Assembly: GCF_025698545.1 (NCBI RefSeq)
Contig: NC_068569.1
Span: 806,001-870,000 of the forward strand
From: Gossypium raimondii
Taxonomy: Eukaryota > Streptophyta > Magnoliopsida > Malvales > Malvaceae
Direction of reading: 5' to 3'
DNA: 64,000 nucleotides
The notes under the pieces were generated by a model, which saw only the letters and a program-made list of their open reading frames with translations, was not told the DNA's origin and did no database searches. The translations under genes were made by a program, and so were the position numbers. Of the stretch, positions 19,117-48,000 are shown one piece after another. The stretch's first letter is position 1; each line of letters starts with the position of its first letter.

Positions 19117-21114
19117 GGGTCAAATTTAAAAAAAACAAAAAAATTAATAGCCATGTGACTTAAATAAAGATTTTCGAATAGTTCAGTGATCATTTAGAAA
19201 CATTTTAAACTTTAGTGATTAAAACGTAAACTTACTAATAATCTAGTGATGTAATTTACTCTAAATTTTATTAAAAATGTGTTTTAGTTGGTGAAAATAT
19301 TTTGATTAATTGAATCAATTAAGTTTTAATTATTTTTATTATAAATTAATATAGGTTTGAAAACATCAATAAATTAATACTATATCTTAAATTTCATAAA
19401 TAAATATAATTATTTAACAAAAAGTAGATATCGGACATAAATGAAAATATATTTAAAAAATTCAACTATATGAAGATACAAATATGAAGCAAAAAAAAAA
19501 AAGTATTTTATATATCTCAATTATTTTCAAATAACCGGACCAAATTAAACTATCATATACATTCTTTCTTTAAAAAAATATGAATATCGCTAATAATAAT
19601 TATTTTAACACTAAATTTTACAAGTTGATATTCTTTAAAAATATTCTACATTTTCCCGTTGGAATATCGCTTATAATATTTATTTTCAAATACTAAATCT
19701 TACAAGTTGATATTACTTCATATGGTATAGTTGTTTAGGCAATAGAATATTGTTTTCCTTTCTATTTATTTTTATAATTATTAACATATTCACAACAACA
19801 ATAGAATAAAATATATTTGTTCTATTCTCATTAAATATCTATATAAAATTATATTTATAGAGCCAATTTATTAAATGAATTATAGGTAGAGTGATGAATT
19901 ATATGATCGTTTGGAGAAAAACGAATGGTTTCATCCTTGGATTTGATTATTTCAAATAGTGTTTTTTAATTATTTTATATAAAACCATGAAAATAATTAC
20001 AAAACCTATGCCATTTATAATTCTTCTCACATGGGGAAGTGAGAAACTGTTTTAGGGATAAAATTGAATTATAATTTTTTAAGGGATTAAATAACATTTT
20101 TCATATTAAGAGATCAAAGTAAAATTTTATTATAAATTATTTGGATTTTTATTACTTCTAAAGGAATTTGGTTGAATATTTTTATTTTTACGAGTGTCAA
20201 CCTTTGATTGTTGTCTATGCATTCTAACTCTTAAATACGAGAAACAATACATATAAATACATTCAAACTCTTATCCTCTTACTTGCTAATAACAATAATA
20301 TAAATTAAACTAAGCTAAACCAACAAAATATCCGAGCGAATAAGCTAAAGTGTGAAAATTTATTGTGAAACTTTTAGATTATAAATGGGAATTTAATAAG
20401 AAGAGACATAAATTACAATATAAATATTTTACTGTTAACTAAAATGAAATACATGAGTAACAAACAAAGTAGTGATGGTACCAAGACAAGGTTTTGAATA
20501 CAATTATAGGAGTTTTAGCAACAGATTGTTGGCGACACCCTACCTAAATCCATAATAAAATTCCACAACTACTACCTTTTAAATTTATAAATTAATAAAA
20601 TAAAATATATTACTATTAATAAAAATGGAAACAAGGTATTGAATACAAAATATGAAAGTTTTAGCAACAGATTCGTTGTTGTTGCCGACAGGGACGTCCT
20701 ACCTAAATCTATAATAAAATTCCACAACAACTCCCTTTTCATAATTATAAATCTTATATACCCTGAGCCATTGACCAAATTTTGGACAGTTAAATTTACG
20801 ACTTTTCAGCCTCGATAGCCACATTTAAGGTCAGTTCTTCATTGCTTTTAAAAAGTATTTTTGAAAAATTTAAGTGTTTGGTAGCGGTCAAGAAGTACTT
20901 TTGAGAAATAAAATGTCCATTTTAGACATGATATTATAAAGCAACAAATATGTATTTAAATAATGTTCAAATTAGTTAATATTATGATATTTTAGAATAT
21001 ATAAACTATATTTAAATATTTAAATATAATAATTAAATATTTATAATTGATATTGACACAATTGTATTATTTTAAAAATTATTTTTATTTTTAATTATTG
21101 CTTTTAACACATTT
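19117..21114. repeat. 2-kb head-to-tail duplication, copy 1
   Basis: Collinear with 21120-23110 over its full length. The differences I found are one- or two-base changes in homopolymer runs, for example in A-runs near 19124-19141 and 19490 and T-runs near 20150. Inside it are two related ~100-bp blocks (about 20481-20579 and 20630-20740), both ending in 'ataaaattccacaac'. It ends inside a MITE that is complete only in copy 2. No genes. Confidence 0.9.
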
Positions 21115-21119
21115 CTCAT

Positions 21120-23110
21120 GGGTCAAATTTAAAAAAACAAAAAATTAATAGCCATGTGACTTAAATAAAGATTTTCGAATAGTTCAGTGATCATTTAGAA
21201 ACATTTTAAACTTTAGTGATTAAAACGTAAACTTACTAATAATCTAGTGATGTAATTTACTCTAAATTTTATTAAAATGTGTTTTAGTTGGTGAAAATAT
21301 TTTGATTAATTGAATCAATTAAGTTTTAATTATTTTTATTATAAATTAATATAGGTTTGAAAACATCAATAAATTAATACTATATCTTAAATTTCATAAA
21401 TAAATATAATTATTTAACAAAAGTAGATATCGGACATAAATGAAAATATATTTAAAAAATTCAACTATATGAAGATACAAATATGAAGCAAAAAAAAAAA
21501 GTATTTTATATATCTCAATTATTTTCAAATAACCGGACCAAATTAAACTATCATATACATTCTTTCTTTAAAAAAATATGAATATCGCTAATAATAATTA
21601 TTTTAACACTAAATTTTACAAGTTGATATTCTTTAAAATATTCTACATTTTCCCGTTGGAATATCGCTTATAATATTTATTTTTCAAATACTAAATCTTA
21701 CAAGTTGATATTACTTCATATGGTATAGTTGTTTAGGCAATAGAATATTGTTTTCCTTTCTATTTATTTTTATAATTATTAACATATTCACAACAACAAT
21801 AGAATAAAATATATTTGTTCTATTCTCATTAAATATCTATATAAAATTATATTTATAGAGCCAATTTATTAAATGAATTATAGGTAGAGTGATGAATTAT
21901 ATGATCGTTTGGAGAAAACGAATGGTTTCATCCTTGGATTTGATTATTTCAAATAGTGTTTTTTAATTATTTTATATAAAACCATGAAAATAATTACAAA
22001 ACCTATGCCATTTATAATTCTTCTCACATGGGGAAGTGAGAAACTGTTTTAGGGATAAAATTGAATTATAATTTTTTAAGGGATTAAATAACATTTTTCA
22101 TATTAAGAGATCAAAGTAAAATTTTATTATAAATTATTTGGATTTTATTACTTCTAAAGGAATTTGGTTGAATATTTTTATTTTTACGAGTGTCAACCCT
22201 TTGATTGTTGTCTATGCATTCTAACTCTTAAATACGAGAAACAATACATATAAATACATTCAAACTCTTATCCTCTTACTTGCTAATAACAATAATATAA
22301 ATTAAACTAAGCTAAACCAACAAAATATCCGAGCGAATAAGCTAAAGTGTGAAAATTTATTGTGAAACTTTTAGATTATAAATGGGAATTTAATAAGAAG
22401 AGACATAAATTACAATATAAATATTTTACTGTTAACTAAAATGAAATACATGAGTAACAAACAAAGTAGTGATGGTACCAAGACAAGGTTTTGAATACAA
22501 TTATAGGAGTTTTAGCAACAGATTGTTGGCGACACCCTACCTAAATCCATAATAAAATTCCACAACTACTACCTTTTAAATTTATAAATTAATAAAATAA
22601 AATATATTACTATTAATAAAAATGGAAACAAGGTATTGAATACAAAATATGAAAGTTTTAGCAACAGATTCGTTGTTGTTGCCGACAGGGACGTCCTACC
22701 TAAATCTATAATAAAATTCCACAACAACTCCCTTTTCATAATTATAAATCTTATATACCTGAGCCATTGACCAAATTTTGGACAGTTAAATTTACGACTT
22801 TTCAGCCTCGATAGCCACATTTAAGGTCAGTTCTTCATTGCTTTTAAAAAGTATTTTTGAAAAATTTAAGTGTTTGGTAGCGGTCAAGAAGTACTTTTGA
22901 GAAATAAAATGTCCATTTTAGACATGATATTATAAAGCAACAAATATGTATTTAAATAATGTTCAAATTAGTTAATATTATGATATTTTAGAATATATAA
23001 ACTATATTTAAATATTTAAATATAATAATTAAATATTTATAATTGATATTGACACAATTGTATTATTTTAAAAATTATTTTTATTTTTAATTATTGCTTT
23101 TAACACATTT
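21120..23110. repeat. 2-kb head-to-tail duplication, copy 2
   Basis: Second copy of 19117-21114, offset about 2003 bases. Where the copies differ, this one usually has a homopolymer one base shorter. Its right end continues without interruption into the rest of a MITE (to 23442), so this copy has the native right flank while copy 1 has the native left flank. Confidence 0.9.
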
Positions 23111-23442
23111 GTATTATTAGATATTAACATAACATAGAAAACATAAACCTAACAAATTAAAATATTACATATATTTGGATTAAAGTTTTAAAAAGAGATA
23201 ATATTTATATACCAAATATAAATACTAAAAATTTTGGGAGAAAACAAAGGTTAAAAATGTAAATAAAAGCCAAAAGCACTTTTGGCTGAAGAAAAAATTA
23301 AAATTTTTAACTTCTCCATCTGCCAAAAAGTACCTTTTTTAAGTTAAAAATTTTTCTGAAATGATGTCGATTCTTTAATGCTTTTAAGGGAAAAACACTT
23401 TTTATTCCAAAAGCCCATCTGAGAAGCATTAAAGAACGGGCC
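22825..23442. mobile_element. MITE with inverted ends and TTAA/TTA target site
   Basis: The left end 'ggtcagttcttcattgc' and the reverse complement of the right end 'ggcccgttctttaatgc' match. TTAA lies directly outside both ends (22821-22824 and 23443-23446). The duplication could be TTA, TAA or TTAA, so it may be Tourist-like (PIF/Harbinger) or piggyBac-like. It is non-coding. The same left end recurs, truncated, at 20829-21114. Confidence 0.65.
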
Positions 23443-23446
23443 TTAA

Positions 23447-25080
23447 TCATCGGTAAGAAATCTCTAACCATTCTTAAACCTTGTTTTTATGAATGTTTTT
23501 TTTTTAGCAAAATAAAATTTTAATCGAGAAGTCAAAGAAACAGTACATAGCTGGGAGACTTTGAGAATCATACAAGTCTCATAACTTTAACTAGTAATGT
23601 ACATAGGAATATATGGACCGATTAATAAAACTGACAGCCTCGCATGTGGATTTTCAATTTATCCAACATCAGTATGAGCTGCTATCTAATTGATTAATGT
23701 CTTTAAATATTCCCCTCAACCATTCATCACATGTTCAAATTCTTTCCTTCTCAATTTTGGCCCCAAACCCATTACATCTTTTCCTTTTTCATTTCGATAC
23801 TTTCAGATGAAATTTCTTTTAAGTAAAATGTAATTAAAAATTAAAAATTAAAATTGCTTTCTTTCTTTCTTTTAACTAAATCCAACATACATCATAATAT
23901 GTAATTTTTTTTATGATTTAACTTCGAGATATTTATGAAAAAATTAACCTTCCATCAATGAATCATAATTTGTATTTTATATTTATATTTTATGATGTCT
24001 ATATAACTTAAGTGAATCCTTAAAATCTTAATATGGACTGAATTTTGAGATGTAGAATACACAATTTAGAAAAGCTACTATTGAATCTAAGCAGATTGAG
24101 ATAATTTAAGTTGAGTTAAATCAAATTTAAAATTTTAGATAATTTTGATTTGGATAGTTTAGGATTTTAATAAATACAAATTTCTAGGTAGATTTACTTT
24201 AAGTTTTTTTTTAAATTTAGATTTGATTCATTTCAAATTATTTGCTTAAATTATTTTTTTGAACATCTAATTCAATTGTGAAAGCGCCTGAGAATTTATA
24301 AGTTTCCACAATACTTAAAATGTGTTTCAGTACGCTCGAATATAAGGGTGAGCAAAATTCGATTCGATTCGAAAAACTTGATAAAAAATTCAAATTTTGA
24401 ATTAAATAGTTCGAGTTATTTGAGTTAATCAAGTTATTCGAATCAACTCGAATAAAAAAATAAGTTTTTTGGTTTAACTCGAATATGAATTACACAATTC
24501 GAGTTATCCAAAAATTTGAATAAGAAAATGCAAAACTACATCATTTGATAAATGTTTACCCATCAAGTTAAAAGGTAAAACCATTATATTATTTATGTAG
24601 TTAAATAATCTTGTACTTCGTCTGCTAATTAAGTAATCAATCTATATAAACACAACATTGAGTATAAATAATAAAATTCGTTAACTTGACTCGATTTGAA
24701 AAAATTCAAATTGAATTTAATTGCTAAAATAAGATTTGTCAAATCAACTAATTTAAAAGTTGTTGACTCAATCGAATTCTCGCCCTTACTCATATCATAT
24801 CCTCCTAAACTAAGAAAATTAGAATCTTAGTGTAATCTTAAATTTGAATAAGTTTAATTTTAGATTATTTAAAATTAGAATAAAATGAGATAATTTTTTG
24901 TTTAAATTTGAATTCAATTTTTAAATTCATGCAAAAACTTATAAGTTTAAAGCCAAAGCATTTGGGTACTAGAAATCGTAGTAGAGGTAACGGTCAAATG
25001 TTAATTCCAAAGACTTGAAAGCGACATTTTAAACAAAATTAGGCGAGAGGACAGAGGCACTGAGTTTGCTATTTGAGGAA
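23447..25080. other. AT-rich intergenic DNA
   Basis: It contains one MITE, listed separately (24343-24788). No gene, RNA or other structure is recognisable. Confidence 0.5.
24343..24788. mobile_element. hAT-like MITE
   Basis: The ends are inverted: 'taagggtgagcaaaattcga' on the left, and the reverse complement of the right end begins 'taagggcgagaattcgatt'. Similar but imperfect 8-base flanks (ctcgaata and ctcatatc) suggest a decayed hAT-type duplication. The interior is rich in 'ttcgagtt'-type words. Non-coding. Confidence 0.6.
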
Positions 25081-25302
25081 ATGAATGGTGGTGTGGCTCA
25101 AAACAAGGATGTGTCAGTTGATAGCAGAGCAGTATCGGGTACAAAGATGCCAGCCACTAAGAAAAGGCCGCTTGTGTTGTGTAGAGCCCAAGGGATCAGT
25201 CTTTGGACCAAATCCATTAAATTGTCTAAAGATGTTTTAAGCATTGATGATTACCAATTACTTCAAGCCCAAGCACCATCATTCTTTACTTTAGATCATT
25301 AA
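25081..25302 (+). CDS. Small ORF of unknown function, 73 aa (doubtful)
   Basis: An open frame from ATG at 25081 to a stop at 25300-25302. The frame is also open upstream through non-ATG codons. The composition is more protein-like than nearby chance ORFs: basic centre (KMPATKKRPLVLCRAQG) and an amphipathic tail (LSKDVLSIDDYQLLQAQAPS). I recognise no family. It could be a small gene, an exon of a longer gene whose other exons I could not find, or a gene relic. No promoter or splice evidence supports a choice. Confidence 0.3.
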   Translation: MNGGVAQNKDVSVDSRAVSGTKMPATKKRPLVLCRAQGISLWTKSIKLSKDVLSIDDYQLLQAQAPSFFTLDH

Positions 25303-28300
25303 GGTTGCCTTTGTAGCTTTGATTCAGTAACAAATAATTTACATTATTCAAGATAAGTTTTAGGTTGAAGTTCTTATGATTTTGCAACAAAGTAAATTAT
25401 GAGAACTCCCCCATCACTTGAACAAACTTTTAACATTTTATTTATAAATCACAATATTTTATAAAATTTGTAAGAATTACATCTCAAGCAATTTGCATAA
25501 ATGCGAGTTAGATTGAAAAGCTTAATGTGACCTAAATTGTAATTTTAAAAATTAATGAGAAAAATATACGAAACGCCCTCCACCCTTCTCAACCTTTTAC
25601 AAAACGGTGTAGTTGCCAACTGTAAAAATGGTTTTTAAAGGATTAAAAAGGCACAAACTTTAACCAGTTTCAACATGCTTGGTTTTCAAAAGTTAAGACT
25701 TTAAAGAAATAAAAGAAAAACATTACTTTAAAAAGTTATTTATATTTTCATGCTTTGGATTAAAAAAGAAGGGGGATTTGATCTTTTGTCTTTGCTTTCA
25801 ATATTGACTATCACAGTGTTGATATTCAATTCATTCATGAACTCAAAGTAAACCAAATTTCTTCAGTTTCAAGGGCTTTTGGAGGGGCCCTAAAGGATGT
25901 TTTAAAATCATGATTAAAGATGCTCCTGCTCTTCTTTCATCTAGCAATTTACCCCATCCATTTCTCTTTTCTTTCTTGCTTTTTTGCCTATTCAGTCCTT
26001 ACTCTTATTACTTAGTTTTCTTTAATATTATTTGAAGTAATTTACGTATGACTTCAATTTTTGTTCAAATAATTTTGTTGATCAATGTTTTAGATATGTT
26101 GGGTTTATTTTTTATTAATGATGGTCCCATGTTGGGGCATTGGTACACCAATCATGGATTCTAGCAATGAATAGAGCCAACAAAACATCTCTCATATTCC
26201 CATCATAAGGAGAAAGTATTGTTCAACAATGATGGCAGTAAGTGCACTGAAAATGGTGGCAAAAAGCATGGATAAGCATGCAAAAACCATAGCTATCCAA
26301 AAATCGAAAATTGATTTAATTTCTAAATTTTGCTTTTGTTTCGATTCAACAATAATTAAACATATTAATTAGCTTTAATTTTTACAATATAAAATACTCA
26401 ACTTCGAGTTTTAATATGCACGATTATAACGTGTGAGTCTTTAATTGGATTTTAGTCTAATTTTTTGTTTACTATAGTTTCTATTAGTTTGATTTTACTT
26501 TATGATTACTCCGATATATGTTTAGGTTCTTTTATTTGTATAAATTTTTTAGTAAGATAGATAAATATAATAATCTAAAAACAATACACTAAATTTAAAA
26601 GTTCTTTTTAGAAAAAAAAAAAGGGAATAATTAAATAGGCTTCAATAAATGAGTAAACGCAAATCGAAAAAAAAAATGAGATGGTTGTGCAATGGGAAGT
26701 ACTTTCACTTCACTTACATCAACAAAAGCAAATGAGGATTGAGGGGTGAAGGAACGTAAAGCTAAGCTTAAAGTGAAACAAAGATTCTTGCTAAAAGCTA
26801 AATCGTGGATTGTAGTAGCAGACATACACTAATGAATTGCATTCTTACTTTTTGACCATTCTATTTTATTTTTTGAATTTTTCTAATACGTGTTATACAT
26901 ATCAACTAAAGATTGTTTAAAAAAAGCAATATTTTATTAAGTTAAATAATTGGTTATACATATATGTAAATCATTTTCTATATGGAACTTTTAATTTAAT
27001 CAAAGTTTAACTGGTTATTCTCGTAAAGTAATATTAGATTATGACATGAGTGAAATATATATATAAATTATATTTGTTAAAAGTTTATATGATAATAAAA
27101 TAAAATTTTGGATGAAATGGTAAAGTAAAAGTCTAAAATTCATTGTATCGTAAGTTTAAATCACATAATGTATGGGTTTTTATCGATTTTAGACAAAATG
27201 ATAAATTTAGCTCTCAATGTTCACATTTTTTTTTCTAAATTGACCATTGCTTTTTAGTTAAGTTTGACCACAAACTTTCAAAAAGAGTAAAATCGGTTTT
27301 TTAACTAAAATGCGGACTAAAAATATCAAATTTTTTAACGATGTTGGTGGACAACCCTTGTGATAATCTATATGTACGTTATGCTAACATGACGCTATTT
27401 ATCATATATGATACATCAACAAATAATTTAAAATTATAAAATAATTTTAAATAAAAATTCAAAAAGAAAATATAGAAAGTTCATAAAATTCCAAAAAAAA
27501 AGTATGAAGTATACATGGAGAGCCATATGTGATGCAATGTTTAAAAGTTTAAAGTTTTAGTCAATAATATTATTTTATTAAAATATTAGTTCATTTCTTT
27601 TGAAGGTTGATAGTTAAATTCAAATTTTAAAAAGGTTGAGGGCCAAATTGTTAAAAGAGGTAAACATTAAAAATTAAATTTATCATTTTATCTTAATTTT
27701 ATACAAAAAAAAAAACAATATCTTTTGCTTTATAAAAAAATATGTTTTTAATAATTTTTAATGGAGTTAATTTCTAGTAACTCAAAAAAAAAAAAGTACA
27801 ATACACGTTAAAAAGCTCTTTTTCTAGTATCTCTTAATTGGTATTAAAAATCACTATATTTATGCCCCAAATCCAAGAGGTCAATGAGGGAACCCATGAA
27901 AGTTTTGCCTTTAAAAGGTTTGGAATCCTATGTGAAATAGTCATTAAAAGAATCTCACACATACAAGTTGGATTAATCAAAGTTAACCCTGCCCAATAAT
28001 GATACATGGATAATTAATTTGATGGAAATTTATACTATATATTAGCTATAGCTTTTTCAATTGTTCCTTAGAATTACTACATTGAAGTTGCAAAGTACAA
28101 CAAACATAGAAGATAATTATCTCTTCCTTTTGTAGTTAAGATAAGATAATATTAATTACTACCACCTCTTAATTGATTAATTCATTTTTTTTGAAAAGAT
28201 TAATTCATTATTGAACTCATTGGTAGGGCATCCATTTTATACTAAAACAAATTTATATATATAGATCACAAAAGTCCTAACACCAGCCATGTTTTGAAGA

Positions 28301-29088
28301 ATTCTTATATGCATAATATACATATGTGAAGAGCTTTAGGCACACAACATATAATTTTTATGCTGCAAATATTTCATATCTTTAAAGCTATATAGGGCAT
28401 ATGATTCTCAATCTTATTATAAAAGTAGGTTAAGTGATAATGTCTCATCTAATTTCAAGGATACGATGCTGATTTGGAGACATGATTGATTGTCTCTTAA
28501 TCTCCTAATTAATTACCAAAAGGTTAAATCTTCCAAAAGCATATATATAATAATTATAATTTGAATCAAATATACCTATATATTACCTAGTAGTACTACA
28601 TATATTCTTTTTTCTTGCATTGGTTTAGACAAAAGATCCCCATTGTGGTCCAAGAATAACCCTCTTTAACTTTGCTTTGCCTTTGCAGAAGTGAGCAATT
28701 GATGAATTTTAAGTCATAATAATCAAATGTTCCTTGGACCATTTTTTTTTAAAGTAGTCTCATCAAGAAAGATAAAAAAAGAAAAAGGCACAAAGACACT
28801 GATATAACATTGCTGATACCATACATCAATTACATGCATGCCCTATGTACTTTAATATTAGCTTAAGTACTTCAACTGAAGTCTTTCAAACATGATTCAT
28901 CTAAAGATCTAAAATAAAGAAACAAACAAAAGAAAAAGAAAGCAAGATCTGGGATTGCCTTGTCTGATCTCTCTCTTGGGACTGCAGTACCTGAAACCAG
29001 AGACATATGTTTACATACCATGCCTTAATTTCACAAATTAGGACAAAAAGTTGTCAAGTGGTATACCCAAAAATGAAAATTTTATTAA
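25303..29088. other. AT-rich intergenic DNA
   Basis: 3.8 kb with no credible ORF and no repeat I could define. The ORF at 26631-26825 (minus) shows no recognisable protein signature. The right end holds the 3' UTR of the zinc-finger gene. Confidence 0.5.
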
Positions 29089-29681
29089 TTAGTATGAAGA
29101 TTTGTGGGTGGAGTCCCTTGGTGCATTGCATCTGAAACATTCCATCCTGCTGGCAAAGTTGTGTTCATTGCAACCCGACCTTGTCAATTAATACCAGAAA
29201 TTAGAAAAGATTTCACGTCCAACTTTATGTTTAAGCATGCAACATATATATATAAAATGATAACATGCACTCCATATATATAGTGTTAATTAATGGAAAA
29301 AAACCTCGTGCAAATCCAGTCTCCAGATTTCCAGTTAGAGCGACTAGAGCTGCCAGTGCTAAAACCATAACCCCTCATACGTGGGATGTCACTTTCAAAT
29401 CCTCCAGATGATTCATCTTTGGCTGCACCACATTTGAAGCAGCTCGACCTGCTGGCGAAGTTGTGAGCACCGCAGTTGCCCACAGTGCAATACCAGTCAC
29501 CAGGCCTAACATCGGGTCCAGTAAACCCGAAAGATGAGCCACCCCTGCCACCAAAGCTTCCATAGTCGCCGCCTCTGTCACCACCACCAGGTCTTGGTTC
29601 TCCACAGCGCTGGCATGAGTCCCTCCTTTGGAAGTTGAGGTGTTGGCATGACCTGCAATTCCAGTCTCCTGGCCTGCTCAT
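29089..29681 (-). CDS. RanBP2-type zinc-finger protein, three fingers
   Basis: A small plant protein with three RanBP2-type fingers, similar to the Arabidopsis At3g15680 family. Such fingers usually bind single-stranded RNA. Coding exons are 29681-29305 and 29179-29089 (minus, GT-AG), giving about 155 aa. Finger 1 starts MSRPGDWNCRSC and ends CQRC; finger 2 is GDWYCTVGNCGAHNFASR...CFKC; finger 3 is split by the intron as GDWICTR | SGCNEHNFASRMECFRC. Gly-rich linkers separate them. All zinc-binding cysteines and the W and N of each finger are present. The start is the ATG before SRPGDW; the longer frame upstream opens only with a TTG. A TATA box lies about 255 bases upstream. A fragment of finger 2 recurs near 35.7 kb. 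Confidence 0.93.
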
Positions 29682-29934
29682 ATTTTCTCCCCTACTACAC
29701 AATATAGTTAAACAAAACTTAGAAGAGAGGTATATATTATATATATACAGTCATGCATGCATCAACTTCATAATGAAGCATAGGAAATGGTACTCAAAGC
29801 TTAAAAAAGTGCAGAGTTGCAGACCTTGAGAAAACAGATATATAAGGGGTGAGTAAGCAAAGACAGGAACAGTGAAGAAGAAAGAATGTGTTGTAAGCAA
29901 AGTTGTGGGTTTATTTTAATAAGGGGGTTTGGGT

Positions 29935-29946
29935 ATTTATATAAGA
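29935..29946 (-). promoter_or_regulatory. TATA box of the zinc-finger gene
   Basis: Read on the minus strand this is tatataaata, a near-perfect plant TATA box. It predicts a start near 29905 and a 5' leader of about 220 bases before the ATG at 29681. Confidence 0.6.
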
Positions 29947-29949
29947 GAT

Positions 29950-32900
29950 TAGACCTTGAGAATGGGGAGGGATTGAAGAAGTAGGTTGGGCAGTGGAGGG
30001 CTTAGGGTTTTCTTTTTCATATTCTTCAATGTCACTTTAATTCCTTGAACAATGGAATCCCAATAAACTAAAATTGGAAAAAGAGATAAAGGAAATTTGA
30101 AATTAGATTCCAAAGGGGAGGAGAAAAAAGATTTAAAAAGCTCCAATTTCAACTCCTTTTTAGGGCTTCTAGTTGCATGTAAATGAGTGGCAAGTGCATG
30201 AGCACATGCAAATGATTTCATTATATTATTCACTTCCTAATATACCCTTCTTCCTGCATGTTTTTCCCTTTATACTCCCTACATATATAATTATAAATCT
30301 CACCCCTTTTTTTTCTCTTCATAAAAAAAATCTCTCTTTTTTCTTTTTATAAATTAATATTGAATTTCTTTTCTATTTTTAATTTCAGTCCAAAATTATA
30401 TACCAACGATGGATGCAATAATAAAACGAAATTCGAATTTCAATATCAAGACAACAATGTTGGGAAAATAGTAACGAACATCCAAAGGATTATGTCCAAA
30501 TAGCGAATGCGTAGGGGTAGCCTAAGGGGCAACAAAATGGGAAAATTCTTTATAACCCCTCCCTAACATTAAAAAAATTCAATTTAGTCCTTTTTAACTT
30601 TTAATTAAATAGAAAAATTATAATTTTAACCCTTTTAAAGTTTAATAATTTAATTTAAACACTTTTAATATAAAATTTTTAACTTTGACCCCCAAATTTT
30701 ATGATATTCTTACATCAACCCCTAAACAAAATTTTTACTGACTTCATCCCTACGATAGCATGTATATGGTTCATTTACCTTAAAGAGACAAATATAAAGA
30801 GACATCTGATTTTACCAAGATTGGGTTTTGACTCAGCCATATTATTATCCTCACTCTATCATATCCAAGCAGTGAGATATGGCCTTACTGATTTTTATTT
30901 TTGGAGTAATGAGAGAGAACCGGATAAGGAGGAACTTTCCTACCAGACAACATGAATATCCCGACATATCTGTGAAAGAACCTTAGAGCCGACTTATTCT
31001 TATCTTAAAATGACCCAAGGAGGGGTTCATGTCTCCTTTCTATTATAATATATATATTATATATACTTTGAAACATACCCATTCCATAACGGTCACTATA
31101 TGCGAAAAAAATGTGGGTGACTTTTCGATTTTTTTGAATATTCCTTTCTGGATGTACTTTGAATTTCTTTCTTCTTTCTTTTCAAGTCAAATGGGTTTAT
31201 GAGAATATTGGATACTAATTCTAGGGATTAAACTGCCATTTTCGACATACAAACCGCTGCACTACAAAATTTGGTTCCAAACCTTGGGCTGTGCCTTTGA
31301 ATTCTATATGTATATTCGTGTTTCGATAAACCAACCAAGTATCTTAAAGCAAACGTAAAGATTTAGAAAAACAAGTATTCTCAATATTCATCGTAGAACT
31401 GAAAGAAGCATAGATATTATACAGTTATATATATATAGGTGAAATTAAAAAATATTGATGTCACTCGTGTTTGTCAGGTTTCGATCATTTCCATGGAGAT
31501 CTAGTCTAAAAGATGTAAGCGAGGTTAAAGCAAAAGTTATTGCATGGCCACAAGGTACGTTATATCCCATTTTCAATTAATTTATTTGTATCTTCTGATC
31601 CTTGTTTGAAAAAAACGAAGAAGTCCTTTCTTTTTAAGTTTTGGGACAAGGAAAAGCTTTCCGATATTCAAATTCTATATGTATTAAGGATTTATATTTT
31701 GATATAATGACGTACGATCAATTTAAGAAATAATAATAAAATCATCTAACTCCAATGATTTTTCATTATTTCATTTATTGAGCACAAAATTATACCATAT
31801 CAGTGCATCGAAATTTAATTTTTAGTAAATATTATATTTTTTAAAAGATGATATACATGTAGGTTAACATTAAAGAAAGGGAGAAAAATGGTAGGGTTTT
31901 CAAAAAAGAGAGATGGAAGCTGAATGATGGGAAGAGAAGTCTTCGAGGTTCAAAATTTTGACCATCTTTTCTCTTCACTGCTAATGGCTTTTTCGCTTTT
32001 ATTTTCTTTTTCCCCCCTACCCTCTCATCCAAAGCAATTTTTTCTTTTGTGATGGAAAACAAAAATAAAAATACAGGAAGAGAGAGTCAAATTAATTCCC
32101 ACAATTTTATTGGGGAATGAGTAAAGAAAAGCTGTTAAAAGCACAAAGAATGACTTTGGGAAATGCTTCCATGCATGAGCAACCGATTTATGCTCCCAAA
32201 CCAAATCATATTAAACATAAATTTTAATTTATCTACTAATTAATCTAACTTAATATTTTAGACTTCAATAAACATGATAATAACTATTAAATACAATATT
32301 AAGCATATGATTAATAATGTTTGTATGATATTATATTTAACTCTAAAAAGAATCCTTAATATTTAGTCATTTGTTTAAGGAAGTTCACTTTAAACCCATA
32401 TTGTAGACTTGAGTTGCAAGAATAACGTGTTAGTAATGCGTGCATGAAAAATCATATTTTACTTCTACTAGTGGTGCATAAGTTATACCAAAATGAACTT
32501 TTAAAAGAAAAACATGTATTGTACTTATATTTAAAATTTTACTTGCTTAATCGAATGAATCATCAATAATATTGACAAAAATTGAAATGCTAGGGATTTA
32601 GCATGTATTGTACTTTTGCCTGTATTTAAAGTTAAAACATTCACTATTTTTGGGCATCCATATTATGTTAATGAATCTGATAATTAATTAATGAGGATTG
32701 GTATGATTTAGGAAATGTGGAAATATGGGTTGCATGCACGTGAGCAGTTTTTGAGATGGGTACGTATGACGTCAGATTATAATGATAAAAGTTAGCTTTA
32801 TTTTTTCTTTTATTACTTTTTAGTCCTCCAACATATTTTTTATTATGCTTTGAGTTCAAAGTTAGAAATTTTCCAAATGCCTTTCTTCACACCACTTTAC

Positions 32901-35475: not shown

Positions 35476-35479
35476 CAGT

Positions 35480-35790
35480 TAAGAACTCGGGGAGGATCAA
35501 AGCATTAGCTAGACAACCCTCGCTTTCATTGAGCAGTCGAACAAGAATTTTAGTCGCGCCTTCCTTGCTCAACATGACCTCCATTTTAGCACCTCCACCA
35601 TCGAATTAACAATTTGCTCCATCTTTTTCAAAGCGTTTAACCCTTCATCGAACCTGAAAAGGTGTCCCAGAACAGTAGTTGACATGGTTTCAATTAAGTT
35701 CTGGAAATGATAAACAAAGGCTGTTGCCCACGGTGCAATACCAGTCACCAGGCCTAACATTGGGTCTAGTGAAATTAAGCTTAACAAAGA
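35480..35790 (-). pseudogene. Mosaic of gene fragments, including part of the zinc-finger gene
   Basis: Positions 35721-35774 match the finger-2 region of the RanBP2 zinc-finger gene at about 29467-29521 with only a few changes. Next to it (35569-35720, minus) the frame reads ...TVLGHLFRFDEGLNALKKM..., then ...MLSKEGATKILVRLLNESEG..., which resembles pieces of another plant protein I cannot name. Frames are broken between blocks. Fragments of unrelated genes side by side suggest transduplication (Helitron or Pack-MULE) or template switching by the neighbouring LINE. Confidence 0.6.
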
Positions 35791-36107
35791 TAAAATTTAC
35801 TTCTGAAAAAAGGAAATAAAATCAAATAAGCAAATATATTAAGGGTTATTTCTTTTATCTGTTGCCGACTTTTATTTTTCTTGCTTCTCTTTGAATGTCT
35901 TATCCTTTGAAGTGTTGGGATTTCTAATATTTTAAAAATTTTCTTGTATGCTAAAGGATTGATCCGTAATGTTAAAGGGTACAAATATATTATGGAGTTA
36001 AAGTAACTTTTATTGGTTTTTTCTTTTTAGAATATTCACTTAAATGACTTAAAATGAATAGTAAAATAAATATTGGCTAAAAAAATAACTACTTAAATGA
36101 ACTGAAT

Positions 36108-36904
36108 TGAATAGTAAAATTGAGTTATAGAAATTAAATGACTGGCACCAACTTTTTTTCTAACACAAACATTGTGTCAGAGATTAAAAAAAATAATTTT
36201 TGGGGTTTTAGACACTAGATGGCTGATACCCATGTATTTTTCCTAATCCGTATCATACTGGTAATATATACCAGTATTTTAAAAAATAGTTATGGTGTTG
36301 ACACATTGATGATGGTCACCCACTACATCTGATTAAAAAAAAATTTGGGTGTTGATACACTGATGGTCGATACCCTCTTTACCTGATTAAATTTTTTTTG
36401 TCATTGGAACACTGATGGTCGGCACCCCTTTATCTCATTAAAAAAAATTTTGGGTGCTAGGACTTTGATGGCCAAATAAAGGGGGTCCCAACACCATTTT
36501 TTTTAATCAGATAAAGGGATACTGACCATCAGTGTCCCAACACCCCAAAAAAATCTTTTTAACCAGATAAAGGAGGTGTCGGCCATCAGTGTCTCAGTAC
36601 CTCAATTTTTTTTTTAATCTAGTGTAGAGGTGCCAACCATCAATGTCCCAACACCCCAAAAAATAATTTTTTATCTAATAAATTAGTGTCAACCATCACT
36701 ACAACACTCTAATTTTTTTTTAAATATTAGTATAAATGTATACTAGTATGACATGAATTGGAAAAAAAATACATAAGTGTCGGCTATTTAGTGTTCAAAA
36801 TCCCAGAAATTATTTTTTTAATCCCTTACACAATCATCAACTAATAATTGTGTCAGAAAAAAAAGGTGGTGCTGATCATCTATTCCCCATAACCCAATTA
36901 TGTA
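36108..36904. mobile_element. Foldback element with long inverted arms and internal ~70-bp repeats
   Basis: The two halves are inverted copies. The left arm runs from 'aattgagttatag' (about 36119) past 'ggcaccaac', 'ttgtgtcagagatt' and 'agacactagatggctgat'. The right arm ends in their reverse complements, up to 'cccaatt' near 36898. Inside each arm, units of about 65-75 bases repeat, each with 'tgatggtc(g)gcaccc' and a T-rich or A-rich tract. No ORF. Exact ends and a target duplication were not resolved. Confidence 0.7.
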
Positions 36905-37523
36905 ACATAACCCTACTTCTACTAAACTGTTTAGACCTACCTCTTTTAAGTAAGTCCAATTAAGGGTATGTTAGAATAGATTAGAGGCAACATATTATAT
37001 TTAATTTTTATTTAGTGAGTATTTTATTATTATTTAAGATAATAATTTGTGAACCTAAAGCATAATTTATTATAATGTAGCTCATAGAATGGATTAAACT
37101 AATAGAGTGAATTTTCTTTAAAAATAAATTAGTAGGGTGAATATATTCCTTGAAAAATTACAAATAAATTAGAAATTTAAGTGTTAAAATGAAATTACTT
37201 TATTAATCCATTAATAACACCAGCTTTGAGGCTAAAATATAACAAAAATCGTTAAACCCAAAATTCAATATCCCCTTAGAAAATGAAAGTTTAAAAGTAA
37301 AAAAAGAAGCACAAAATTTAACGGTTGAATTGTAGGGGATTAATCCTTTATTATCCCGCTCAATGACATTAGATTTTAGGTCATATCAAATATTATTAAA
37401 TGCTACTTTCTTCAATCATCCTCCACCCTTATGCAAAAATTTGGATAGCTGTTCCATTACTAATGCAGAATTATTCATATTTTCCATCATCCTTCTTCAA
37501 ACATTTGCTAATATTCAGCTCTG
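36905..37523. other. Intergenic DNA downstream of the RLP gene
   Basis: AT-rich, no gene or element recognised. Confidence 0.5.
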
Positions 37524-39794
37524 TAATTCATTAGGAATAACGTATGGTAAGAACTATATTTTGACTTAGCCTTAATTAATTGTTAGACTACCTTTATTTA
37601 CCAAAAAGATTATATCCATATATTTCTAGCCAGTTTGTGTATATTTTTCATCTTTTCAGAATATAAGAAGATAATTTGCAATTATAAAGCAAAAAAGAGT
37701 ATACTGCCTTTTTATCGAAGGATAATAAATTACAAGAATATCAAAAAATGAGTAGAGAAAATGTGAACTTAACATTGCCTTACATATTTCCACAGTGGAG
37801 CCTTTTAGGCAGAATATGGTCTTCCAAAAAATAGTAGCAGCAATTGCTTATTGACCCAACATAATAGAACCATGCTTGTCTCCAGTATGGATTAATGTAA
37901 AGCACACATGCAATACTCAGGATTGCCATAACATAAGACACAACGAAAGTCACATAAAAGGAAATCATATCAATCAAACCATTTTCAGTCGATGCTTTTG
38001 GCAATAAAGATGCTGATGGTCCTGATGTTGAGCAGTCCTTCAATGGATCACCACAGAGAAGAGGATTTCCCACATAGCTGCTTTCGTCAAATGTTGCAAA
38101 TTGTGCAGTCCATGCAGGTGTACTTCCAGATAAATTATTGTATGCCACACTGAAATAAGACAACCTATATAACCCCACAAGTTGTGGAGGGATTTTCCCG
38201 CTCAAGTTGTTGTGAGAAAGATCGAGACTCTCAATTTGCTTCAGATTGGAAAACGCCGGTGGGATTGGTCCTATCAAATTGTTGTGAGACAAATTCAAAG
38301 CATAAATATTTCGCAAGTTTTTCACTTCGCTGGGAATCTCACCTGTCAACTTGTTGCAAGAGAGATCAATTCCAGATAAGTATGTGAGAACAATTCCCTT
38401 ATAAGAGTAAGACATGCTTTTCACTCTGAACTCTATCGGTTCATCAATGGAGAAAGAACTGGGAGGTTGAGCAATATCAGTGACATAACGAACATATTCT
38501 TGGGATATTTCATTCAGTGCTGTAATCTTCAGGCAAGGTGGAATTGTACCTGAAAGATTGTTATTGGAAAGATCAATCAGGCTTAACTGGCCCAATTTGC
38601 ATAACTGAATTGGAATCCCACCTTCAAAATGGTTGTTATTTAGCAAAAGAAAACTCAATCGAGAAAGGTTGCCAATCCAACGTGGAATTTTCCCAGTTAA
38701 GTGATTATTGCTGAGATCTAATGTCACCAGGCTAGTGCTATTATGAAAAACATTTGTGAGTGCCCCTTCTAGCTTGTTTCTTGATAAATGAACTTGACTT
38801 ATCCATAAAGGGCTGAAACAAGATGGAAGACGCCCAGATATGTTGTTCACTGAAAGGTCTAGAAGTTTAAGATCATTAAGATGGCAAAACTCCTTTGGGA
38901 ATGGACCTTCAAGATGATTATTTGCCATCACAATTTCTTCCAAATTTGACATACTCCCCATCCACCTTGGTATGTCCCCAGAAAGCTCGTTATTGCTTAA
39001 ATCCAATGTTGACAAACTTGACATATTCTCCATCGACATTGGTATCTCCCCAGAAAGCACGTTATTGCTTAAATCCAATGTTGACAAAAAGGAGCAATTA
39101 GACAAGGAATCTGGGATCTTCCCAGAGAAATGATTCCCATCTAAGTGCAACTCCCGCAACTTTGTAAGGTTAACATTTGAAGAGAACATCTGCCCTTGCA
39201 ATTTGTTGTTGGACAGTGCAAGGGAAGTTAATGAAAAGCAGCCCATGGTCAAATGCTCGGGTAGCCCACCAGACAATTGATTATTGGACAAGTCCAAGGC
39301 TTCTAAGAAATTCATATCACCAATCGAAGAGGGAATGCTACCGTGAAATTGATTTTTTGACATGTTCAGAAACGACAATGATGGTAGTTTTTCCCCAATA
39401 TCAATTGGAAGATTGGTATAGAATGAATTTTCTGAGACATCCAAATACGATAAGTCCGTATGCGGAAGGAAAGGTAACTCAAAATGACCTTGGAGAGAGC
39501 TGTTAGCAAGAACTAACCTTTCCAAATTTGCGTTGTTATTCAACAACCAATTTGGAAATCCCTCTCTAAAGTTGTTGTTAGAGAGATAAACTTGCCTTAA
39601 GTCATGTTGATGGAACAAAATATGAGGAAATTGTCCTACATCTCCACAACTAGATAAACTGATAAGGTTCAATTGGAATCTTGGGGCCAAAGGTTGCATC
39701 TCACTTTCAATGTATATGGTATTGTTGTCCGCATTGAAATGCTTGAGTTTTGAAAGGTTGAAGAAGGGCTCCAATGAGCTTGGGATTTTGAAAT
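37524..39794. repeat. 2.27-kb head-to-tail duplication of the RLP last exon, copy 1
   Basis: Collinear with 39795-42057. The junction near 39790-39800 joins exon-11 coding sequence to the 3' flank across a shared 'taatt'. Differences from copy 2 are single-base homopolymer changes (for example at 37604, 37648, 37690, 37712 and 37746). Confidence 0.92.
37780..39794 (-). pseudogene. Duplicate of the RLP last exon (open frame, no 5' exons)
   Basis: An unbroken LRR frame of about 665 codons from the duplication junction to the stop at 37780-37782. It holds about 20 LRRs (LxxLDLSNNxLSGxIP), the loop-out region (EFRVKSMSYSYKGIVLTYL), more LRRs, an acidic-poor C-terminal cap (LLCGDPLKDC), one TM helix and the short tail after INPYWRQAWFYYV. 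It lacks about 70 N-terminal residues of the exon and all upstream exons, and has no promoter of its own. It is the better-quality version of the exon that is broken three times in the neighbouring copy. Probably an assembly duplicate rather than a second gene. Confidence 0.75.
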
Positions 39795-42057
39795 TAATTC
39801 ATTAGGAATAACGTATGGTAAGAACTATATTTTGACTTAGCCTTAATTAATTGTTAGACTACCTTTATTTACCAAAAGATTATATCCATATATTTCTAGC
39901 CAGTTTGTGTATATTTTCATCTTTTCAGAATATAAGAAGATAATTTGCAATTATAAAGCAAAAAGAGTATACTGCCTTTTATCGAAGGATAATAAATTAC
40001 AAGAATATCAAAAATGAGTAGAGAAAATGTGAACTTAACATTGCCTTACATATTTCCACAGTGGAGCCTTTTAGGCAGAATATGGTCTTCCAAAAAATAG
40101 TAGCAGCAATTGCTTATTGACCCAACATAATAGAACCATGCTTGTCTCCAGTATGGATTAATGTAAAGCACACATGCAATACTCAGGATTGCCATAACAT
40201 AAGACACAACGAAAGTCACATAAAGGAAATCATATCAATCAAACCATTTTCAGTCGATGCTTTTGGCAATAAAGATGCTGATGGTCCTGATGTTGAGCAG
40301 TCCTTCAATGGATCACCACAGAGAAGAGGATTTCCCACATAGCTGCTTTCGTCAAATGTTGCAAATTGTGCAGTCCATGCAGGTGTACTTCCAGATAAAT
40401 TATTGTATGCCACACTGAAATAAGACAACCTATATAACCCCACAAGTTGTGGAGGGATTTTCCCGCTCAAGTTGTTGTGAGAAAGATCGAGACTCTCAAT
40501 TTGCTTCAGATTGGAAAACGCCGGTGGGATTGGTCCTATCAAATTGTTGTGAGACAAATTCAAAGCATAAATATTTCGCAAGTTTTTCACTTCGCTGGGA
40601 ATCTCACCTGTCAACTTGTTGCAAGAGAGATCAATTCCAGATAAGTATGTGAGAACAATTCCCTTATAAGAGTAAGACATGCTTTTCACTCTGAACTCTA
40701 TCGGTTCATCAATGGAGAAAGAACTGGGAGGTTGAGCAATATCAGTGACATAACGAACATATTCTTGGGATATTTCATTCAGTGCTGTAATCTTCAGGCA
40801 AGGTGGAATTGTACCTGAAAGATTGTTATTGGAAAGATCAATCAGGCTTAACTGGCCCAATTTGCATAACTGAATTGGAATCCCACCTTCAAAATGGTTG
40901 TTATTTAGCAAAAGAAAACTCAATCGAGAAAGGTTGCCAATCCAACGTGGAATTTTCCCAGTTAAGTGATTATTGCTGAGATCTAATGTCACCAGGCTAG
41001 TGCTATTATGAAAAACATTTGTGAGTGCCCCTTCTAGCTTGTTTCTTGATAAATGAACTTGACTTATCCATAAAGGGCTGAAACAAGATGGAAGACGCCC
41101 AGATATGTTGTTCACTGAAAGGTCTAGAAGTTTAAGATCATTAAGATGGCAAAACTCCTTTGGAATGGACCTTCAAGATGATTATTTGCCATCACAATTT
41201 CTTCCAAATTTGACATACTCCCCATCCACCTTGGTATGTCCCCAGAAAGCTCGTTATTGCTTAAATCCAATGTTGACAAACTTGACATATTCTCCATCGA
41301 CATTGGTATCTCCCCAGAAAGCACGTTATTGCTTAAATCCAATGTTGACAAAAAGGAGCAATTAGACAAGGAATCTGGGATCTTCCCAGAGAAATGATTC
41401 CCATCTAAGTGCAACTCCCGCAACTTTGTAAGGTTAACATTTGAAGAGAACATCTGCCCTTGCAATTTGTTGTTGGACAGTGCAAGGGAAGTTAATGAAA
41501 AGCAGCCCATGGTCAAATGCTCGGGTAGCCCACCAGACAATTGATTATTGGACAAGTCCAAGGCTTCTAAGAAATTCATATCACCAATCGAAGAGGAATG
41601 CTACCGTGAAATTGATTTTTTGACATGTTCAGAAACGACAATGATGGTAGTTTTTCCCCAATATCAATTGGAAGATTGGTATAGAATGAATTTTCTGAGA
41701 CATCCAAATACGATAAGTCCGTATGCGGAAGGAAAGGTAACTCAAAATGACCTTGGAGAGAGCTGTTAGCAAGAACTAACCTTTCCAAATTTGCGTTGTT
41801 ATTCAACAACCAATTTGGAAATCCCTCTCTAAAGTTGTTGTTAGAGAGATAAACTTGCCTTAAGTCATGTTGATGGAACAAAATATGAGGAAATTGTCCT
41901 ACATCTCCACAACTAGATAAACTGATAAGGTTCAATTGGAATCTTGGGGCCAAAGGTTGCATCTCACTTTCAATGTATATGGTATTGTTGTCCGCATTGA
42001 AATGCTTGAGTTTTGAAAGGTTGAAGAAGGGCTCCAATGAGCTTGGGATTTTGAAAT
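39795..42057. repeat. 2.27-kb head-to-tail duplication of the RLP last exon, copy 2
   Basis: Second copy of 37524-39794, connected on its right to the rest of the RLP gene. It lacks single bases in homopolymers at about 40222-40224, 41162-41163 and 41594-41596. Each shifts the LRR frame. Further short homopolymers lie in the 3' flank. Confidence 0.92.
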
Positions 42058-45000
42058 AATTGTTTGAAAGTCTCAACTCTACGAGGGATGTTAAAGACTT
42101 AAGGGCAGATACATCTCCAGATAACTGATTGGAAGAGAGATCTAAATTCTCAAGAGATGTGAAATTGTAAAAACATTCTGGCAAAGTACCCTTCAGATTA
42201 TTGTTGCTCATATCCAAGAGTCTGAGATTTGTCAAGCCACAAAAACCTGCAAACATAACATTAAATAAATAAATAGAATGCCATTCAAGGGAACCAAAAA
42301 CAATAAAACAAATTAAATATAATATATTCTAGTTGTATTCGTTCCTTGCCTAAAAAAAAGGGATCTTATTGTATGGGAAAGTAGGGTACTAAAATGTTTC
42401 GTGTTTATTCACCTTGGGTATGTAAGGTGCCATTGAGTCCACAACCCGTTAAGCTTAGTTGCTTGATAGAAGGCATTGCACCAATTTTGTGAAGAAAGTT
42501 GTTTTCAAGAGAAGTATCTTCTATGTGCATGAATTCCAAATTCTGCAACTCATGTGGATCTATTTCAAACAAAACCAAAGTTACAAAAATTTATGTAGAT
42601 ATGTTCCAAATGGAAAAAAAAAAAAAAAACTGTATGCAATTCAATATATATAAAAAGAAAGAGAGATCCTTTAAGTTGAGTTTATTATTTTAGCTTTAGG
42701 GTGGGTTTGGATAGGCGATTGGATGCGGTGCGTGCGTTTAGTTTACTTTTTGTCTCACGCACAAGATCACTATAGTGTCTAATCTCACCGCCATGCATTT
42801 TTTACACTAACCGCATTAAAGAGCCCATCCAAACTCACCCTTAGTATTTGGAGTTTTGAGAAAAGGTTATTAGGGACACAAAGTGAGTGCAAATTATTGA
42901 AAATTTTAGAAAAGAAAACAATTTTATAAAATATTACTATAAAATTATAGAAAGAGAGAGAGAAAGAAACTGAGAAATATTATTCTTTTAACCTCATTAT
43001 TCTTTTTATATTTATTGAAAATTTTAGGAAGCACCACAATTTTATAAAATTATCCAAAAAAAATTCACTTTCTTTCTTCTTCTTCTTTTGTAGTATTTAT
43101 TAAAAGTTAAATAATTTCTTGAATTTTCGTCATCACATCCTATCATAAGTTTTTAATGCTGGGAAATGAAATAAAAAAGAAGCATGAATCAACAAATTTT
43201 TATTAATAATTATAAACAGTTTTGCTCTTTTTTGGGTTTAATAAATACTGTTTCAAAATAGGCTTGTAAATAATATATTTATGGGAAAATCATTCTTTGT
43301 ATAAAAGAAATGATAAATTGAAATAATACAGTTGTGTATAAGAAATATTATTTTACAATAATTAAAATATAATATTAAAAAAACTAAAATTAGATGTCTA
43401 AAATCACATTCAACATATGTGCCATTAGAAACCAGTATTTATGTAAATTAATATTAAGAATTAAGATACGTAAAAAAATAGTAACTTACTGATTTGAGAA
43501 TGAGAATCAATTAAATTAACTCCGTCCAAGGAAAGAGTCTTCAATGATGAGAATAAATCTAATGATTGTAGCCGAAGATTGCAATCGGCCTATCAAATAG
43601 TATATTTATATTTACTTTATTTCTTTGGAATATATCAAATTAATCAAACTAACAAGTAATTAGTACATTTAAATTAAATTTGGAATCAGCCACAATTTTA
43701 TTTTAGTAGTACCAATTGGATAGCAGCTCATATGGAGGTCCTCCAAATTGCTCAAGCCATCTAATTCTGAGGAGAATCAAAAATTGAAAAGTAAATACTT
43801 TATTAATATATGTAGACGTCATTGAATAAGGAGAAAGAGGATGATATCTGACCTTTAATATCTATTGTTCCTTCCAAATTGGAGCCTCCTAAAGACAAAG
43901 TCTTTAGATTTGAGAGTGTTCCGAAGATGACAAAATGGTATTGTTGAAGAGATTGCCAAACAAATCAAGCACTGTCAAATTCATCAACCTTAAACCTGCC
44001 TCATTATTACCAAGTAGCATGTTCTTAATTATTTCACTTCCCATTTAGTTATACTTTTCAAATATATATATATACATATATAGATTTTAGCGAATTCTTT
44101 TTCCCCAATCTGTAATATATTTTATATAATTTAAATATATCTAAAAGTATTAATAAATTGAATTCAAGTAAGATCGAAATACAATGGAGCAAAAATTTAA
44201 ACCTAAAATTATGTAAAACTCACATTATCAAATCCTTCACTCTTTGACGTCTCTTGATGCATTTATAATTAATTTTATTTTTATACCCTAATATTATATC
44301 TTTCTTTGCAACTCATGTGGATCTATTTCAAACAAAACCAAAGTTACAAAAATTTATGTAGATATGTTCCAAATGGAAAAAAAAAAAAAAAACTGTATGC
44401 AATTCAATATATATAAAAAGAAAGAGAGAGATCCTTTAAGTTGAGTTTATTATTTTAGCTTTAGGGTGGGTTTGGATAGGCGATTGGATGCGGTGCGGTG
44501 CGTTTAGTTTACTTTTTGTCTCACGCTACAGTATCACTATAGTGTCTAATCTCACCGCCACCGCTGTTTTTACACTAACCGCAGGTAAACGCACCGCCCA
44601 TCCAAACTCACCCTTAGTATTTGGAGTTTTGAGAAAAGGTTATTAGGGACACAAAGTGAGTGCAAATTATTGAAAATTTTAGAAAAGAAAACAATTTTAT
44701 AAAATATTACTATAAAATTATAGAAAGAGAGAGAGAGAAAGAAACTGAGAAATATTATTCTTTTAACCTCATTATTCTTTTTATATTTATTGAAAATTTT
44801 AGGAAGCACCACAATTTTATAAAATTATCCAAAAAAAATTCACTTTCTTTCTTCTTCTTCTTTTGTAGTATTTATTAAAAGTTAAATAATTTCTTGAATT
44901 TTCGTCATCACATCCTATCATAAGTTTTTAATGCTGGGAAATGAAATAAAAAAGAAGCATGAATCAACAAATTTTTATTAATAATTATAAACAGTTTTGC

Positions 45001-48000
45001 TCTTTTTTGGGTTTAATAAATACTGTTTCAAAAATAGGCTTGTAAATAATATATTTATGGGGAAAATCATTCTTTGTATAAAAAGAAATGATAAATTGAA
45101 ATAATACAGTTGTGTATAAGAAATATTATTTTACAATAATTAAAATATAATATTAAAAAAACTAAAAATTAGATGTCTAAAATCACATTCAACATATGTG
45201 CCATTAGAAACCAGATTTATGTAAATTAATATTAAGAATTAAGATACGTAAAAAAATAGTAACTTACTGATTTGAGAATGAGAATCAATTAAATTAACTC
45301 CGTCCAAGGAAAGAGTCTTCAATGATGAGAATAAATCTAATGATTGTAGCCGAAGATTGCAATCTGGGCCTATCAAATAGTATATTTATATTTACTTTAT
45401 TTCTTTGGAATATATCAAATTAATCAAACTAACAAGTAATTAGTACATTTAAATTAAATTTGGAATCAGCCACAATTTTATTTTAGTAGTACCAATTGGA
45501 TAGCAGCTCATATGGAGGTCCTCCAAATTGCTCAAGCCATCTAATTCTGAGGAGAATCAAAAATTGAAAAGTAAATACTTTATTAATATATGTAGACGTC
45601 ATTGAATAAGGAGAAAGAGGATGATATCTGACCTTTAATATCTATTGTTCCTTCCAAATTGGAGCCTCCTAAAGACAAAGTCTTTAGATTTGAGAGTGTT
45701 CCGAAGATGACAAAATGGTATTGTTGAAGAGATTGCCAAACAAATCAAGCACTGTCAAATTCATCAACCTTAAACCTGCCTCATTATTACCAAGTAGCAT
45801 GTTCTTAATTATTTCACTTCCCATTTAGTTATACTTTTCAAATATATATATATACATATATAGATTTTAGCGAATTCTTTTTCCCCAATCTGTAATATAT
45901 TTTATATAATTTAAATATATCTAAAAGTATTAATAAATTGAATTCAAGTAAGATCGAAATACAATGGAGCAAAAAATTTAAACCTAAAATTATGTAAAAC
46001 TCACATTATCAAATCCTTCACTCTTTGACGTCTCTTGATGCATTTATAATTAATTTTATTTTTATACCCTAATATTATATCTTTCTTATTATTTTATTCA
46101 TACCACCCATTTTCAAGAATCGAATAGTGGTTTCGTAATCACAAATCCGAGCTAGAAAGAAAATTTATTTTAATATTGTGGTATGGTCTATATTATGATA
46201 AGAAGGTTGCATGAAAATTTTGATAATAAAATTTTATTGATTATATGGTAAAATTTATTTAAATGGATTAAATAAAAAATGCATTTCGGGACTCCGCCTC
46301 AGAATGGATTCGTAAATATTTATTATAAATATTTACGAAGTTAGTTGTGTGTCTAATTATGTTTTGACTAGGTGAATTTGATTTAATTAGAAGTAATTAG
46401 GAAAAGGGATTAGATTGAAATAAGTGTGAGAGTTTAATTATAAATTAAAGAAAGTAAAAAGGACTAAATAGGCAAAAATACCAATGTTATAAATTTAGGC
46501 GGTTTAACATTGAAAAAATCTAAGATATTTTTAATTTAAAATATATATTATATTATATTTACTTAATTAACAAGTATGTTATTTTATTATATAATATAAT
46601 ATATTATTATATTATTATATATATAAAAACAAAAGAAAGAATAAAGAAACAGAATCGAAACAGAGGAGAAACAGGGAGAAAGAAAGAAAGAAAAAGTAAA
46701 GAAGAAAACTTTAAGGTTCAATTTCAAATTGGTAAGTCAAATTAAGTCATTTTCTTAAAATTTTTGAGTTTTTATGATTCTAGAACAAAATACTATTAGG
46801 TATATGTTGAAATTTTGAAAGCTAGTAGAATTTTTTTATGTAGTTTATATTGAATTAGTGGATGAATTGATGGAAATTCAAACTAGGATTGGGAAAAGGA
46901 TTAAATTGAGAAATAAGTTATAAGTTTAATGTAAAATTGTAAGAAATTGAAATTAGGGTTTATTAGTGAAAATTTGAGGTTAAGTTATAAGTAGAATTTA
47001 AGTAAAAATAAGGTATAGATTGTGATAGAAATAGAAATAATTTTAGTTATGAATTAAATTGAAATATTAGCTAAGGTAAGAAATTATGAAATTATTATAT
47101 CATATATGTTTATTTTTATTAAATAATATAGGAAATTTATTTGATTGTTTTTCTAATATATAAATGTTATGTAACACCCCTTACCCGTATTCGATGCCGG
47201 AATAGGGTACGAGGTATTACCAAAACACACACACTTATAACCATATTAAATCGAGTTGTAAAATTTCATCTAAGCTAAAACTTTTAAATTGTTATTCTTA
47301 ATTCGCTAATTAGGGTTTACATAGCCCAATATACTCACAATCTTTCATTTCCTCGTCGTATGAATTAAAAAATTTCCATTTACTTATTGAATTCATCACG
47401 AATACCTGAATTGATCTGTATCATTACATATTCTCATGTCGTCACATTTTCCTATTTAACTATTGTAATATATCAATTATTCAATATCTTATAAGCTAAG
47501 TGTCACATATACTTTATCCATTCATCTCCCATACAACTATCAATATTAGCTACAAAGATAGAACAAATTTTCTCTGTTCGATGTTAAATCAAAACATATT
47601 ACTTCATTACCAACTACCCTTACTAAATATACACCTTAAATTAGTCCAAGTGTTTAACTATTCACCCATGACATAAATATATTTTATCTATTATTGCAGA
47701 ATATAAATGTGTTACCCAAATCATAATTCACCTCACATAGTAACTAAGTTAATTTTTATCATTTGTCAAATAAATTACAAAACAAATTATATAACAAAAT
47801 ATAGATACATTTTAAACCTCACCAATAAACAAATTCTTATGGCATTAAATAATTATCACGCATCAAAGACAAACGATTTGATATTTCCATCACATAAACC
47901 GGATTAATCAAGCAAACTCAATGATGTAATCATCCTTTAACTTACCTAACCAAGCCAAATTATACCATCATCTCACACATAGAATGTCCCACCTATCATA

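Follow-up and report, generated by a model that had tools for sequence, protein, structure and literature searches.

Three adjacent direct repeats in a plant genome assembly as probable products of untrimmed joins between overlapping pieces

Introduction

Homotype false duplications are reported to arise near contig boundaries, or from sequence left under-collapsed owing to sequencing errors (Rhie et al. 2021, PMC8081667; Ko et al. 2022, PMC9516828). As set out in the sections of these two papers drawn on here, the copies differ in consensus quality and partial gene duplications can arise from them (PMC8081667; PMC9516828), and incorrect gap filling is named as one link between false copies (Ko et al. 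2022, PMC9516828). In the portion of PMC8848313 used here, the inserts placed by long-read gap closers are described as capable of bearing errors, for instance a short homopolymer contracted by a single base. One scaffolder is described, in the corresponding portion of PMC8849508, as prone to artificial contig duplications, and overlaps between neighbouring contigs are there treated as negative gaps to be merged.

We analyzed a stretch of 64,000 nucleotides, referred to as the window, which carries three adjacent direct repeats (D1, D2 and D3). When set beside the described classes, these repeats resemble a known kind of assembly artefact, the homotype false duplication.

Location and layout of the repeats

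Self-BLAST of the window returned three adjacent direct repeats, at exactly the loci for which they had been claimed in the original prediction. The three pairs, with their self-BLAST limits, are:

D1 pair, 19117-21114/21120-23110, direct, 99.45% identity
D2 pair, 37524-39799/39795-42061, direct, 99.6% identity
D3 pair, 42544-44306/44307-46087, direct, 98.5% identity

Judged from the sequence, three kilobase-scale pairs at 98.5-99.6% identity could not be of chance origin. A 31-mer scan of the window, in which offsets were listed when at least 10 k-mers were shared, gave only short shared stretches at 51-52 kb besides D1-D3. The parts into which the repeats and the neighbouring sequence were divided are as follows:

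19117..21114, D1 copy A, longer in 9 of 11 homopolymer differences
21115..21119, spacer between the D1 copies, 5 bases, without a junction match
21120..23110, D1 copy B, probably the less corrected side, being shorter at 9 of the 11 homopolymer differences
37524..39794, D2 copy A, the longer copy in 8 of 8 differences; contains the open LRR frame; would be the end of the better left piece
37780..42328, minus strand, region of the last exon of an LRR receptor-like gene, into which the D2 repeat intrudes
39795..42056, D2 copy B, its frame broken by contraction at three sites
39795..44306, 4512 bp, putatively one under-corrected piece made up of D2 copy B, the unique stretch and D3 copy A
42057..42543, single-copy stretch between D2 and D3, 487 bp, without a self-match in self-BLAST
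42544..44306, D3 copy A, which is the shorter one at 8 of the 9 differences lying outside the fold-back element
42699..42841, fold-back element of D3 copy A, within which all 6 D3 substitutions lie, at 42764-42816
44307..46087, D3 copy B, would be the start of the better right piece
44463-44613, counterpart of the fold-back element in D3 copy B

D2 and D3 thus have their shorter copies next to each other, facing across the 487 single-copy bases. The window contains no N at any position, and therefore any gap within it had already been closed.

With respect to its general character, the window has a GC content of 31% and contains a cellulose synthase gene, a mitochondrial carrier, and XS-domain and LRR matches, a gene content by which it appears to be plant nuclear DNA. 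Several further features were observed within it. A tandem array of about 54-base units lies at 36279-36655, beside an imperfect inverted self-match at 36294-36655, and the local GC skew of the interval 48001-50000 (-0.31) is strong relative to that of the remaining 2-kb steps. A near-palindrome of 815 bases at 52642-53456 (80.6% self-match on opposite strands) encloses an Rfam match to MIR8643 at 52973-53121, which scored 171 bits against a gathering threshold of 135. A diverged duplication spans 51307-53814, in which 51307-51980 matches three pieces of 52010-53814; its differences are mainly substitutions, unlike those of D1-D3, and it looks to have been interrupted by two inserts, one of which would be the near-palindrome.

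Nature of the differences between copies

The divergence of the copies had been described beforehand as confined to homopolymers, and this description held for D1 and D2 and only in part for D3. All 11 differences between the D1 copies were 1-bp homopolymer indels, with no substitutions, and the 9 differences between the D2 copies as first aligned were likewise all homopolymer indels, again with no substitutions. One of these nine sits at an ambiguous 5-base junction, and when the D2 copies are ended at 39794 and 42056 the count becomes 8 homopolymer indels in 8 differences. Homopolymer compression rendered the two copies of D1 identical, as it did the two copies of D2. Of the 22 atomic differences in D3, 6 were substitutions, 9 were homopolymer indels and 7 were indels of other kinds; 13 differences remained after homopolymer compression, 9 of them at 42761-42823. 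Outside the fold-back element D3 held 9 differences, every one an indel, of which four were something other than simple homopolymer changes (two AG-repeat steps, one T and one TG).

Changes were tabulated against run length by run-length encoding, and the table is quoted for D1 and D2 together. No change was found among 2501 runs of 1-2 bases, while 4 of 211 runs of 3 bases, 1 of 79 runs of 4 bases, 9 of 25 runs of 5 bases and 5 of 11 runs of 6 or more bases had changed. The corresponding row for D3 was set aside owing to alignment slips beside AG repeats; it contained 10 changed runs, compared with the 5 homopolymer events counted outside the element.

The ratio of substitutions to indels was 0:28 in D1-D3 outside the element. 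Nine further repeat pairs from the window served as controls and gave 93:25 (Fisher p about 1e-15). These control pairs were hand-picked from self-BLAST, are older than D1-D3 and are of several kinds; the comparison marks the mix of substitutions and indels as abnormal and gives no dating. The 28 indels comprise 11 from D1, 8 from D2 and 9 from D3 outside the element, with the differences inside the element (6 substitutions, 7 indels) excluded. Also excluded, from the controls, were the inverted self-matches at 36294-36655 and 52642-53456, the pair 20486-20592/20631-20752 inside D1, and the repeated entries that the D2 copies produce for the 38941/39013 pair. By their kind, the differences in D1-D3 resemble consensus errors of long-read assembly.

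Heterotype false duplication likewise takes the form of near-identical copies side by side, as described in the sections of PMC8081667 and PMC9516828 drawn on here, and the repeats might accordingly represent two haplotypes of a heterozygous plant set in tandem. Substitutions are, however, absent from D1, from D2, and from D3 outside the fold-back element. Allelic substitutions between the copies were not found, haplotype duplication was rejected, and we consider such an origin extremely unlikely.

Between the two copies of the fold-back element the substitutions and indels are clustered, and the remainder of D3 is free of substitutions. Both copies of the element fold better than shuffled sequences, with z scores of -4.47 and -4.34. 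The arms of the element were considered as a marker of the damaged D3 copy, in which case intact arms would have been expected in copy B and disrupted arms in copy A; the arm alignment scores were 32 for copy A and 29 for copy B, and the marker was discarded. The cluster of substitutions does not fit a pure homopolymer error model; that it stems from mis-mapped reads of related elements in the same family is no more than conjecture.

Consensus quality of the copies and the LRR receptor-like gene

The lengths of the copies were compared at each difference. D2 copy B was the shorter in 8 of 8 differences (p = 0.008), D3 copy A in 8 of the 9 that lie outside the element (p = 0.039), and D1 copy B in 9 of 11 differences (p = 0.065), a direction which is not significant alone. 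For D2 a reading frame was available for comparison. Copy A contains an open LRR frame of 672 aa (37780-39798, minus strand), and the frame of copy B is broken at 40222, 41162 and 41595 by three contractions, which are all of the coding indels in D2; the other five D2 indels fall in the 3' flank. When copy A was joined to the right flank of copy B, a single last exon resulted, open to the stop. In D3, copy A is without two bases at 43587 which copy B retains, and by eye this site looks like a splice acceptor. The copies thus differ in consensus quality, and the shorter copy appears to be the one of lower quality, as indicated by the reading frame in D2 and by counts only in D3 and D1. The 487-bp unique stretch gave no independent sign of error.

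Real duplication has to be weighed against these observations. If the repeats were genuine tandem duplications, of very recent date and essentially identical sequence, and one copy had been left unpolished as short reads mapped to the correct copy, the same homopolymer-only differences would be expected. Receptor-like loci do hold real tandem duplications, one of 39.7 kb being present at barley Mla in the part of PMC8290290 consulted. That duplication is 99.9% identical and yet has 13 SNPs as well as 11 indels, not indels alone (PMC8290290, same part). Real duplication would moreover need three identical young events within 27 kb, two of them less than 500 bp apart in one gene, and the unpolished copies of D2 and D3 would also have to face each other. 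We regard this origin as very unlikely. In a more specific form of the same proposal, D2 and D3 would be real young partial duplications within one LRR receptor-like gene, at a stage before substitution, with D1 a third nearby and the second copies left unpolished. We give this form a slender chance; if true, a plant receptor gene would have been surrounded by local duplications arising in a burst.

Junctions and proposed origin of the repeats

Short matches had been claimed at all three junctions. The claim survives for D2 only, where a 5-bp match is possible; the D1 junction has a 5-bp insert and no match, and the D3 copies abut, also with no match. The junctions of D1, D2 and D3 have no common signature.

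The repeats are very probably an assembly artefact in which pieces were joined without trimming of their overlaps, D2 and D3 representing the ends of one piece and D1 a second join. Overlapping pieces, either contig ends or a patch for a scaffold gap, would have been joined end to end untrimmed such that each overlap is present twice, and the copy derived from the less corrected piece would bear the homopolymer contractions. D2 and D3 would be both ends of a single piece, at about 39795-44306 (4512 bp), which overlapped both of its neighbours. Of the better pieces, one would end near 39794 and one begin at 44307, and their true separation would be only about 487 bp. A similar join would have produced D1, in which copy B is probably the less corrected side. 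We infer that the extra copies are missing from the plant, that D2 and D3 are common to one piece, and which step of the pipeline would be responsible. Gap filling and a small misplaced contig would look alike in outcome here. The original prediction had attributed the repeats to a systematic assembly step such as gap filling or overlap trimming, and this attribution is upheld to the extent that the repeats are best explained by an overlap left untrimmed or by a gap fill, the differences resembling consensus errors.

The same prediction had counted three independent events. The interval between D2 and D3 is under 500 bp and has a shorter copy on either side, and since these facing worse copies would be explained by one piece of 4512 bp, the three events reduce, probably, to two. 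When three units of the observed lengths were placed at random in simulation, two of them fell within 482 bp in 5.5% of trials, and we reckon that inward-facing shorter copies would have a one-in-four chance if D2 and D3 were independent. An artefact of the same class could also have arisen from three unrelated joins, with the closeness of D2 and D3 due to chance. Any one junction, taken alone, could be the product of an untrimmed join, and the differences in detail among the three would suit unrelated joins. Neighbouring shorter copies of D2 and D3 are, on the other hand, what is predicted from one piece with two overlapping ends, and the proximity of D2 and D3 alone has only the simulated frequency given above under random placement. 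Three unrelated joins are unlikely in our estimation, at odds which overlap with those of the single-piece explanation.

With respect to the nature of the piece that would have been inserted between 39795 and 44306, the 16-A run in D3 is the same in both copies and the identity of the copies is high, which argues for a fill with a consensus-level piece rather than raw reads. The cellulose synthase ORFs outside the repeats follow one another along the Pfam profile from position 1 to position 719, and the flanks are therefore not broadly error-ridden. This tiling was obtained with 7 of the 10 ORFs of one Pfam scan together with one further ORF; of the other three scanned ORFs, one matched the zinc-finger of the cellulose synthase family and two were without a match.

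Discussion

Among the described classes, homotype false duplication is the one that D1-D3 resemble. Of four features listed for it in the sections of the literature drawn on here, two were observed, namely error-type differences and differing consensus quality. The error-type, non-allelic differences were found in D1, D2, and D3 outside the fold-back element, but not within the element. The cases published in those sections were established by read depth and k-mers, whereas D1-D3 are known from the assembled sequence alone. A single piece overlapping both of its neighbours, so that one insertion gives two repeats, is not described in the sections of PMC8081667 and PMC9516828 drawn on here, and the exact anatomy seen in the window has no description in the portions used of PMC8081667, PMC9516828, PMC8848313, PMC8290290 and PMC8849508.

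Faulty gap filling or unmerged negative gaps are plausible as sources of D1-D3, although each differs in some respect from what was observed. The copies of D1 and D2 are 99.4-99.6% alike, which is above the mean identities of several gap closers given in the portion of PMC8848313 used here, and untrimmed overlaps are not described in that portion. For unmerged negative gaps, the portion of PMC8849508 used here gives no junction anatomy for comparison.

If this join error recurs, gene models would be split or lengthened and family counts inflated, for example those of LRR receptors. In LRR receptor families tandem copies are expected, and hence false ones would be believed. To count one event per repeat would overstate even the number of artefacts, as D2 and D3 probably represent one mis-joined piece in one gene.
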